Notes under the pieces: generated by a model | What the model saw: the letters and a program-made list of their open reading frames with translations, nothing else | Database searches by the model: none | Told to the model about the DNA's origin: nothing | Program-made: the position numbers and the translations under genes | Source of the DNA: a virus | Virus record (IMG/VR): IMGVR_UViG_3300042898_000090 | Coordinates: 1-36,924 of that record | Direction: 5' to 3' (one strand) | Length of the DNA: 36,924 nucleotides | Shown here: in pieces, positions 4,936 to 9,368 of the stretch | Layout of the letters: every line of letters starts with the position of its first letter | Numbering within the stretch: the stretch's first letter is position 1

Positions 4936-5038
4936 CAATATCGCCAGTTAGTTCCAAGGCTTTGCGTATCACCCATTGCGGGTAACTAACCCCATCCCGC
5001 ACCCTGTCCAATATTCGCATCGCTATTTCGTAGGTCAT
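4916..5038 (-). CDS. 40-residue conserved phage micropeptide
   Basis: The ATG at 5038 overlaps the TGA of the DUF6475 gene (ATGA). The frame reads MTYEIAMRILDRVRDGVSYP, then QWVIRKALELTGDI and ends GHGTL. A short helical domain with the ILDRVRDG-x-SYP and ALELTGDI pattern is one I recall among phage hypothetical proteins. Exact coupling at the upstream end and length consistent with the neighbours argue that it is real. Function unknown. Confidence 0.6.
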   Translation of the reverse strand: MTYEIAMRILDRVRDGVSYPQWVIRKALELTGDIDGHGTL

Positions 5039-5625
5039 TTGTAGCCCAATGCTTGCGTAATTTGAGTATGCAATTCAAGGGGCTTGCTTGGGTTGCCCCC
5101 TGCTATCAATCTAGGTTTTGGCAAAGCCAACCCTTTTTTAATAAACATTTCGTCAGGCGACCTATCACCCATTAAGGCGGGTACATGGCTTGTTTGCCCA
5201 TCGTGCGCTTTGTAAAGTTCGCAAAACCTATGTTGTAAATAACTTAATTCCTTTGTTTCGGTGCGGCAAAACTTTGACCATCCACCCATATCCCGAATAC
5301 TTGCATGGGTTGCGCTATCGCCAAAATCAACATCGGTATAAGCCCCAACCGAACTCATGGCTTCATACACCCGCCCCCATTCACGCAAAGAACGGTCGGT
5401 TTTAGTGCCGCCCAAGATACGCACAATATCGGCAACCTTTGGCGCAAAGTGTCCTTTGTCGGGGTCGGTCGCATGGTTGCTTAGTGCCTGTACCACTTGT
5501 TCAAACTCAAATGCTTGGCAACCGTTCCACCAAACATTTAAAGTAAATTCGCTTACATCTTGCTTCCAGTAACCAAGCGCATCGCCAACTAATTTGTAAA
5601 AATTGGCTTTTTGATTTGCGTTCAT
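5035..5625 (-). CDS. DUF6475 protein, candidate replicative helicase loader
   Basis: The 196-residue protein has the DUF6475 pattern: an N-terminal helix, NVWWNGCQAFEFEQVVQAL near 30-48, then DPDKGHFAPKVADIVRIL, and later DMGGWSKFC. The WW, short helix and KPADIV-like segments resemble small phage helicase-loader domains such as g39P. The loader function is inferred from that resemblance and from its place directly after the DUF1376 initiator. It overlaps the initiator gene by 4 bases. Acting in replication initiation is likely; the precise role is not shown. Confidence 0.7.
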   Translation of the reverse strand: MNANQKANFYKLVGDALGYWKQDVSEFTLNVWWNGCQAFEFEQVVQALSNHATDPDKGHFAPKVADIVRILGGTKTDRSLREWGRVYEAMSSVGAYTDVDFGDSATHASIRDMGGWSKFCRTETKELSYLQHRFCELYKAHDGQTSHVPALMGDRSPDEMFIKKGLALPKPRLIAGGNPSKPLELHTQITQALGYK

Positions 5626-6344
5626 ACAAAACCTTCTTTCTTCAATAGTTTTTCAACAACGGCGCGGTTTGATGCTTCCAATGATTCTTGTTTGTTAAGT
5701 TTGGGTTTTATGCCATCAGGCGGTAAAGCCTTGGCTAACCATTCCAAAGGTTGAATAGGTTTTGCCCTAATGCAATCGCGCAGGGTGTTCACCAATGTTT
5801 CATCGCCGTGCGCTTTTCTTAGGCTACCAAGAAATGACCGTGCGCTTTTATCGGTTGTACCCGCATTGGTTAACAATGGAACACCATAACCAAAAATAAT
5901 TTCATCAGGCGTTAGGGGCGGTTTAACGCCCGTATCTTTAGATACGGAATTGTGTTCTGTGTTCTGTGTTCTGTGTACTGTGTCTTGTGTAGCATTGCTA
6001 TCGGATTGCGTTCGCAATGCGTTCGCATCCTTCTTGTTCCATCTAGCCTTTGCAGATGCACTAGCCTTTTCACTTTTTTCGCCTGTTTTAGCAATTTCTT
6101 TGTTTGCACGATGATGAACCCATCCATCTATTGTGCGTTCGAAATACTCTTGCAATACGGATGCAATGCAATCGCTATGCGTTCGCATACGAATCTGTCT
6201 TGCAACTTCGGTTATTTCAAGTGGAATAGGTAATTCGTGTAGATAGTACCAATCAAGCAAACGCCTATAGGCTAAATCTTCCATATCGGAAAGATGCGAT
6301 GTGTGACTTTGATAGTCACCAATATTGAACTGGTAATAGTGCAT
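5622..6344 (-). CDS. DUF1376 (YdaU-like) replication initiator
   Basis: From the ATG at 6344 the protein is 240 residues. The N-terminus is a DUF1376 domain: MHYYQFNIGDYQSHT, LSDMEDLAYRRLLDWYY and LHELPIP. Such proteins act as phage origin-binding initiators with a wing-helix-like first domain. A basic Ser/Ala-rich segment follows, then a low-complexity linker whose DNA is tandem repeats (5951-5992), and a C-terminal helical domain. The longer reading starts with GTG at 6368 and adds an unsupported 8 residues. It is followed by the candidate loader. The tandem repeats inside the gene parallel the lambda O gene, which holds the origin. Confidence 0.8.
   Translation of the reverse strand: MHYYQFNIGDYQSHTSHLSDMEDLAYRRLLDWYYLHELPIPLEITEVARQIRMRTHSDCIASVLQEYFERTIDGWVHHRANKEIAKTGEKSEKASASAKARWNKKDANALRTQSDSNATQDTVHRTQNTEHNSVSKDTGVKPPLTPDEIIFGYGVPLLTNAGTTDKSARSFLGSLRKAHGDETLVNTLRDCIRAKPIQPLEWLAKALPPDGIKPKLNKQESLEASNRAVVEKLLKKEGFV
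5951..5992. repeat. Six tandem heptamers inside initiator gene (candidate iterons)
   Basis: Six consecutive 7-bp units are present: TGTGTTC three times, then TGTGTAC, TGTGTCT and TGTGTAG. They occupy 42 bp in the linker part of the DUF1376 gene, which on the coding strand gives His/Thr/Asn/Gln-rich codons. The run is unusually regular for coding DNA. In lambda-type phages the initiator binds repeats inside its own gene, so this may be part of the origin. Confidence 0.7.
6007..6187. repeat. Repeats of TGCGTTCGCA near the candidate origin
   Basis: Three exact copies of the near-palindrome TGCGTTCGCA are at 6007-6016, 6018-6027 and 6178-6187, with a partial copy TGCGTTCGAA at 6134-6143. The first two are adjacent. 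They lie next to the heptamer run at 5951-5992 within the initiator gene. Together the two repeat classes look like a composite binding region, possibly the replication origin. Coding constraint is an alternative explanation. Confidence 0.5.
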
Positions 6345-6454: not shown

Positions 6455-6652
6455 TCAAAGAATCATCAATGTATGCAAAATTTCGCGTTCATTGTGCAAC
6501 ATAGCAAAATATTCTGTTTGTGCCGCATCTTTAAAAAGATGATAGCAAATCAAGTGATACAAAGAATCTTGCATTGATTGATTGGCAACCGCAAATGCTA
6601 AATGTTCGGTCATCATTGATTTGTAGTGAAAGTATTTTTCTAATTTAGTCAT
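6455..6652 (-). CDS. Hypothetical small helical protein
   Basis: The 65-residue protein starts MTKLEKYFHYKSMMTEHLAF and is largely helical with many aromatic and His residues (YHLICYHLFK). I do not recognise a family. The ATG at 6652 overlaps the end of the regulator gene by 8 bases, so both are in one early unit. It separates the regulator from the initiator and could be a replication or anti-host accessory, which is not shown. Confidence 0.5.
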   Translation of the reverse strand: MTKLEKYFHYKSMMTEHLAFAVANQSMQDSLYHLICYHLFKDAAQTEYFAMLHNEREILHTLMIL

Positions 6653-6839
6653 TTTTTTGTAACCTTTTGTTTAAGAAAACTTTAGGATGCAACAACTTAA
6701 CTGATGCGGGTATTCCCCTAGTTAACCAGTTGTGAACACGTTGCGGTGAATTGATGCCTATGCGCTTTGCTACCGCGGTAGTACCGCCCAATAAGGCTAT
6801 CAATTGCTTGTCGGCTTGAATTTGGTCTTGTTTGGTCAT
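6645..6839 (-). CDS. Cro/YdaS-like helix-turn-helix regulator
   Basis: The 64-residue protein has a Cro/YdaS-type HTH between residues 11 and 50: KQLIALLGGTTAVAKRIGI, then SPQRVHNWLTRGIPASVKL. The layout of a first helix, AVAKRIGI turn and RVHNWL recognition helix is typical of short phage Cro proteins. It would bind operators between the two divergent operons. A perfect 15-bp palindrome (6860-6874) and a 5-bp inverted repeat lie directly upstream of its start. No CI-like partner is visible in the window, so it may be a single early regulator rather than part of a lysogeny switch. Confidence 0.75.
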   Translation of the reverse strand: MTKQDQIQADKQLIALLGGTTAVAKRIGINSPQRVHNWLTRGIPASVKLLHPKVFLNKRLQKND

Positions 6840-6840
6840 A

Positions 6841-6874
6841 GTTGCATCTTAGCAACAAATTTAAATTATTTAAA
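6841..6874. promoter_or_regulatory. Operator-like palindromes between divergent operons
   Basis: TTTAAAT-T-ATTTAAA at 6860-6874 is a perfect 15-bp dyad with one centre base. GTTGC (6841-6845) and GCAAC (6852-6856) form a second inverted repeat immediately upstream of the regulator ATG. A half-site with TTTTAAA occurs near 6890. The stretch is AT-rich and lies between divergent genes, which suits an operator for the Cro-like protein and a minus-strand promoter. Confidence 0.6.
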
Positions 6875-6903
6875 CAAATTGTGAAAATATTTTAAACATG
6901 GTG

Positions 6904-8739: not shown

Positions 8740-9368
8740 TTGAAAAAGTTGAACAAGGTACGCCCGAATGGTTTGCCGCACGATTGGGTAATGTCACGGC
8801 ATCCCGCGTTGCTGATGTAATTGCCAAAACCAAAAGTGGTTATTCAGCATCACGCGAAAACTACATGGCGCAATTGATTTGCGAACGCATGACAAACACG
8901 GTTGCAGAATCGTACACAAATGCGGCTATGCAATGGGGTACGGAAACCGAACCACTTGCCCGCGCCGCCTATGAATCCGTAGCCGATGTTTTGGTTGATG
9001 AAGTAGGGTATGTTCAGCACCCACGCATTGAACGCGCAGGGGCATCGCCTGATGGCTTGATAGGCTTGTTTGGGTTACTTGAAATTAAATGCCCTAACAC
9101 CGCTACCCATATCGACACATTGATTAGCGAACAAGTACCGACAAAGTACATAACCCAAATGCAATGGCAAATGGTTTGTACGGGTCGGGCTTGGTGCGAT
9201 TTCGTATCGTTTGACCCACGGTTGCCAAACGGGTTACAAGTGTTTGTTAAGCGCGTTGAATTTGATACGGAATATGCGGCAACGCTAGAAATAGAAGTGG
9301 TTAAGTTCTTAGCCGAACTAGATACCAAAATTAGTAAACTGAATGAAAGATTAAACCATGTCAACTAA
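8736..9368 (+). CDS. YqaJ-like viral recombinase exonuclease
   Basis: The 210-residue protein has the YqaJ/lambda-exonuclease pattern: an N-terminal QGTPEWFAARLGNVTASRV, a WGTETEPLARAAYE block (67-80), Asp106 in SPDGL, and Glu116-x-Lys118 in LLEIKCP, then a Gln-rich helix with YITQMQWQM. These are the PD-(D/E)xK metal and catalytic residues. It would chew one strand from double-strand ends, leaving single strands for ERF to anneal. It overlaps the previous and next genes by 4 and 11 bases. Confidence 0.85.
   Translation: MIEKVEQGTPEWFAARLGNVTASRVADVIAKTKSGYSASRENYMAQLICERMTNTVAESYTNAAMQWGTETEPLARAAYESVADVLVDEVGYVQHPRIERAGASPDGLIGLFGLLEIKCPNTATHIDTLISEQVPTKYITQMQWQMVCTGRAWCDFVSFDPRLPNGLQVFVKRVEFDTEYAATLEIEVVKFLAELDTKISKLNERLNHVN

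Follow-up and report, generated by a model that had tools for sequence, protein, structure and literature searches.

Short, regularly spaced repeats are embedded in the coding DNA of a phage replication gene, raising the question of whether this stretch serves the encoded protein or a function of the DNA itself, such as the replication origin that the first-pass annotation had proposed. We analyzed the whole of IMG/VR virus record IMGVR_UViG_3300042898_000090, a stretch of 36,924 nucleotides (hereafter, the window), together with its relatives.

The host gene and its neighbors

The window derives from a tailed phage, as profile searches with Pfam and PHROGs placed terminase and capsid genes at its far end. 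The repeats lie in a DUF1376 (YdaU-type) replication gene of 240 codons (5622..6344, minus strand). Its product matched PF07120 with an E value of 3e-21 and a score of 75.9 bits, above the gathering cut-off of 30.1, and thus belongs to this family. PF07120 was its sole Pfam match, a match to Phage_rep_O (the lambda O family) being absent, and the PHROGs search returned a 'primosomal protein' (2e-32). To our knowledge, DUF1376 is annotated as a domain of unknown function. The AlphaFold model of the N-terminal domain (mean pLDDT 84.6) had a winged-helix layout, and the structure-neighbor list (VIA) consisted mostly of winged-helix proteins with middling scores (best Z 7.1; Foldseek E 0.16 or worse). 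Fold searches with the full-length protein and with the N-terminal domain gave nothing at E 0.001, and a PDB sequence search gave nothing convincing. The encoded linker (residues 107–141) was predicted to be disordered, with pLDDT under 50.

The next gene downstream (5035..5625, minus strand) encodes a DUF6475 protein (PF20081, 6e-16) with a weak match to the helicase loader family phrog_2289 (7e-5), making it a candidate helicase-loader partner. When the next genes of relatives were inspected (n=71), 9 were DnaB-like, 9 encoded a P-like loader, 7 a DnaC-like loader, and 6 another loader. An Erf-type annealing protein is encoded farther from the host gene, as is a YqaJ exonuclease (Pfam/PHROGs). 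The host gene lies in an early region, with a YdaS-like regulator encoded at 6645–6839. AT-rich direct repeats with a unit of about 19–22 bp, perhaps operators, are present beside the YdaS-like gene at 6854–6898. GC skew across the window was uninformative and marked no origin.

Three repeat arrays in one gene

The host gene carries three arrays, all read here on its coding (minus) strand. The C array (5951..5992) consists of six 7-bp units with the consensus NNACACA (CTACACA, AGACACA, GTACACA, and GAACACA three times). On the plus strand, these are the six in-line TGTGTTC-type heptamers that had been noticed in the first-pass annotation (TGTGTTC at 5951, 5958, and 5965, TGTGTAC at 5972, TGTGTCT at 5979, and TGTGTAG at 5986). 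They form the top lag-7 self-match of the whole window (25/28) and exceeded every one of 100 whole-window dinucleotide shuffles, the maximum of which was 20. The B array (5995..6027) lies in the linker and comprises three 11-bp units, TGCGAACGCAT, TGCGAACGCAA, and TCCGATAGCAA. The A array (6144..6187) lies within the DUF1376 domain and comprises four, TGCGAACGCAT, AGCGATTGCAT, TGCATCCGTAT, and TGCAAGAGTAT. The top lag-11 stretch of the window starts at 5995; the second place, starting from 6143, was tied with two others (14/22).

The same annotation had listed three near-palindromes and one partial copy. The three full copies of TGCGTTCGCA were confirmed in the host gene (6007–6016, 6018–6027, and 6178–6187), but they are better described as parts of direct repeats with 11-bp units, of which the linker has three and the domain four; the second cluster, at 6144–6187, was added here. 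The partial copy, TGCGTTCGAA at 6134–6143, had to be given up because it is not conserved, with a synonymous difference of 0.39–0.46 at its F, E, and R codons in relatives. The pattern TGCG(TT/AA)CGCA occurred 4 times in the window, compared with a mean of 0.18 in shuffles. A fourth, isolated TGCGTTCGCA is located on the minus strand at 8880–8889, within the YqaJ exonuclease gene.

Selection on the DNA of the arrays

We compared 67 distinct genes of close relatives from IMG/VR by their mean pairwise synonymous difference. This value was 0.45 in the domain and 0.43 past the arrays. The arrays themselves gave lower values (A, 0.139; B, 0.023; C, 0.056), and the A array had the lowest synonymous difference within the DUF1376 domain. 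The linker DNA was almost frozen in these relatives, even though many kinds of C-terminal domain come after it. Within the heptamers, the five core positions varied by 1.7, 4.0, and 2.2% at codon positions 1, 2, and 3, respectively, and the two free positions by 35, 32, and 30%, whereas the corresponding values for the DUF1376 domain were 11, 7, and 35%. Variation of the heptamers therefore tracks heptamer position, not codon position, a pattern that neither protein selection nor slippage predicts.

The reading frame provided a second line of evidence. One relative (L217) has an additional 11-bp unit, as does the closely related L208, and this unit moves the frame: the unchanged DNA of the joint codes for AMLHKTQDT, not NATQDT, and the heptamer DNA is likewise read differently. 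The same shifted frame was found in three more distant genes (L257, L258, and L269). The usual frame is retained in seven genes that have four or five 11-bp units, indicating that unit number alone does not fix the frame. Conservation at synonymous sites and the preservation of the joint DNA across a change of frame clearly indicate, from alignments of natural genes, that A, B, and C are under selection as DNA, as had been suspected at first reading.

Recurrence of the two-array layout in the DUF1376 family

Whether related DUF1376 genes have the same pattern, a check suggested in the first-pass annotation, was examined with 90 representatives of 304 distinct genes, chosen at <80% positional identity of the N-terminal domain (insertions depress this measure, and some pairs are closer). 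The null model was the same protein encoded with random synonymous codons (p<0.05). The mean best self-match (n=90) was 0.80 at lag 7, 0.75 at lag 14, and 0.68 at lag 11, compared with 0.46–0.52 at the other lags from 4 to 20, and the lag-7 signal was above the null in 85 of the 90 representatives. Immediately upstream of C, lag 11 was the best lag in 68/80 representatives (mean 0.71, with 0.60 at lag 22 and 0.34–0.46 at other lags), and the signal there was above the null in 64/80 (p<0.05). These results indicate that the layout of an 11-bp array followed by a 7-bp array is general in the family.

The units themselves are clade-specific: TGCGAACGCAW occurs mostly with ACACANN, and GTTCAAC-type and AACCCA-type units occur with AACCANN. 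Among named records, the 7-bp array was above the null in phages of Vibrio, Acinetobacter, Pseudomonas, Moraxella, Xanthomonas, Chlorobiaceae, and Methylophilaceae and in two plasmids, and the 11-bp signal was above it in Pseudomonas, Moraxella, some Vibrio, one plasmid, and a Bordetella phage; in several distant named DUF1376 genes, the 11-bp signal was not above the null. The second array of the Bordetella phage has a period of 6 bp instead of 7, and in Vibrio phage 234P9, TGCGAACGCAT, as read from the sequence, recurs at a 21-bp spacing, or two helical turns. A plasmid search yielded only five DUF1376 records, which were distant. On average, the C array of the representatives was 66% AT (A 54%, C 30%, and G 4%), compared with 56% for the gene, and the heptamer units of the window's own clade are less AT-rich than this average.

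When viral contigs were searched for five consecutive AACCANN units, 116 of the 120 stretches among the matches listed fell in DUF1376 genes; two of the other four resemble DUF1376 genes truncated by the contig, and two (L496 and L544) are plain repeats. Among these matches, the motif thus comes close to identifying the family. All 117 B-element matches listed were in DUF1376 genes, including one cut off by a contig end, and no copy outside such genes was found among the matches listed. The ACACA-type heptamer pattern alone was dropped as a family marker because simple repeats match it too.

Repeat type and the N-terminal domain

Seven relatives (including L011–L014, L016, and L057) carry the window-type C-terminal domain behind other N-terminal domains and other repeats; judging from these genes, the host gene is modular, with a joint immediately past the heptamer array. 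Pairs of genes with the same N-terminal and an unrelated C-terminal domain agreed in iteron class in 84% of cases, whereas those with the same C-terminal and a different N-terminal domain agreed in 12% and random pairs in 34%; the pairs are not independent, and physical linkage of B and C with the N-terminal domain could partly explain the cosegregation. In the genes compared, then, iteron type goes with the N-terminal domain and not with the often-exchanged C-terminal domain.

An 18-bp palindrome, CCGTATCT-AA-AGATACGG, lies immediately past the C array (5930..5947), and its membership in the proposed origin is uncertain. It accompanies the window-type C-terminal module, including behind a non-DUF1376 N-terminal domain in L259, and one compensatory variant was seen, CCGTAGCT/AGCTACGG (TAGCT/AGCTA).

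A candidate lambda-like origin

Synonymous conservation, recurrence above the null, the frame shift, and cosegregation with the N-terminal domain all support the proposal of a candidate origin in the initiator gene. We therefore regard it as likely that the region is a lambda-like replication origin lying within the gene for the protein that would initiate from it, with binding and origin function inferred from sequence. In this model, the N-terminal domain, a predicted winged helix, would bind the 11-bp units of B, the proposed initiator binding sites, and probably also those of A, the proposed second binding cluster. With a spacing of about one helical turn, these units lie on the same side of the DNA. 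The initiator would form a nucleoprotein complex there, and this complex would open the adjoining C array, the proposed unwinding element, whose 7-bp units are rich in A and C on the coding strand and, on average across the representatives, have a higher AT content than the gene. The separate, exchangeable C-terminal domain and the product of the downstream gene would then bring in the helicase.

In Stx and other lambdoid phages, the origin lies in the middle of initiator gene O, tandem iterons stand beside an AT-rich tract, and extra iterons lengthen the protein (PMC7466680). The present region shares with them the mid-gene location and tandem candidate iterons. The tract beside these is AT-richer than the gene on average in the representatives, less so in the window's clade, and an adjoining helicase-loader gene, as in lambdoid phages, is frequent in relatives, with a weak match in the window. 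The proposed initiator is a DUF1376 protein (PF07120) and not a member of the lambda O family; the region would work like a lambdoid origin without belonging to that family. Lambda iterons are about 18–20 bp long, whereas the units here are shorter, at 11 bp. Furthermore, the AT-richer tract here is itself a 7-bp array, and another cluster of 11-bp units is found within the predicted DNA-binding domain.

The ydaU gene of the E. coli Rac prophage (L446, 10171–10977) belongs by annotation to the same DUF1376 family, and the downstream ydaV is annotated as encoding an ATP-binding protein. Its linker has several TGTTCAA-like units about 11–13 bp apart; in contrast to the window, a clear heptamer array is absent. 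The Rac prophage has an active origin, oriJ (PMC3945230). For Francisella phage KIRK, the putative origin, a prediction only, likewise combines repeats with a location inside a replication gene (PMC7924643), and it differs from the window in protein family (Phg_2220_C) and in repeat layout. A published description of such a DUF1376 origin was not found in the open-licence literature, where the titles and abstracts of papers mentioning DUF1376 were not about origins.

Alternative explanations

Selection on DNA reveals a site, not its use, and the arrays could be bound by the same protein or a neighbor for another DNA function, such as autoregulation, partition, or regulation. The early region with its YdaS-like regulator would be a suitable setting, but the mid-gene location, the primosomal-type family with adjoining helicase or loader genes, and the order of the arrays, with 11-bp sites first and an AT-richer array next, which suits an origin better than an operator, make such a role improbable. 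Less probable still, the linker DNA might be conserved as a recombination joint at which C-terminal modules are exchanged. The same linker precedes many kinds of C-terminal domain, and the 18-bp palindrome sits at the joint; however, array A, about 120 bp off within the domain, is conserved too, and distant clades, whose sequences differ, retain the periods of 11 and 7, a feature that recombinational homology would not call for.

It is very unlikely that the conserved nucleotides form an mRNA element. A 121-nt stretch of the linker folds better than shuffles (z -3.8), chiefly through the palindrome at 5930–5947, but conservation lies on direct repeats, not stems, and array A shows no folding advantage over shuffles (z -0.84); Rfam and tRNA scans gave no match. 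Replication slippage in an unconstrained linker, which predicted disorder and short tandem repeats might suggest, is scarcely credible, being already contradicted by core positions that are frozen beside two free spacer positions, by the near restriction of the arrays to one gene family among the matches listed, and by the recurrence of period 7 across 90 diverged genes.

Implications for the DUF1376 family

The origin reading might extend to a more general one, which we put forward tentatively: DUF1376/YdaU genes may form a distinct, widespread class of phage origin with a fixed two-part code, in which helically phased 11-bp duplex sites are followed by a 7-nt array read in single-stranded form by the initiator or a loader, and the origin dictates the coding sequence of the linker. 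The DUF1376 family occurs in phages of many bacteria. If the proposal is true, the origins of many DUF1376 phages would be readable directly from sequence, and the family would gain a function as origin-binding initiators. Puzzling repetitive linkers (e.g., NNQEPITNNQEP) would be explained by DNA constraint, and the gene would be a clear-cut example of a single sequence acting as both gene and origin.
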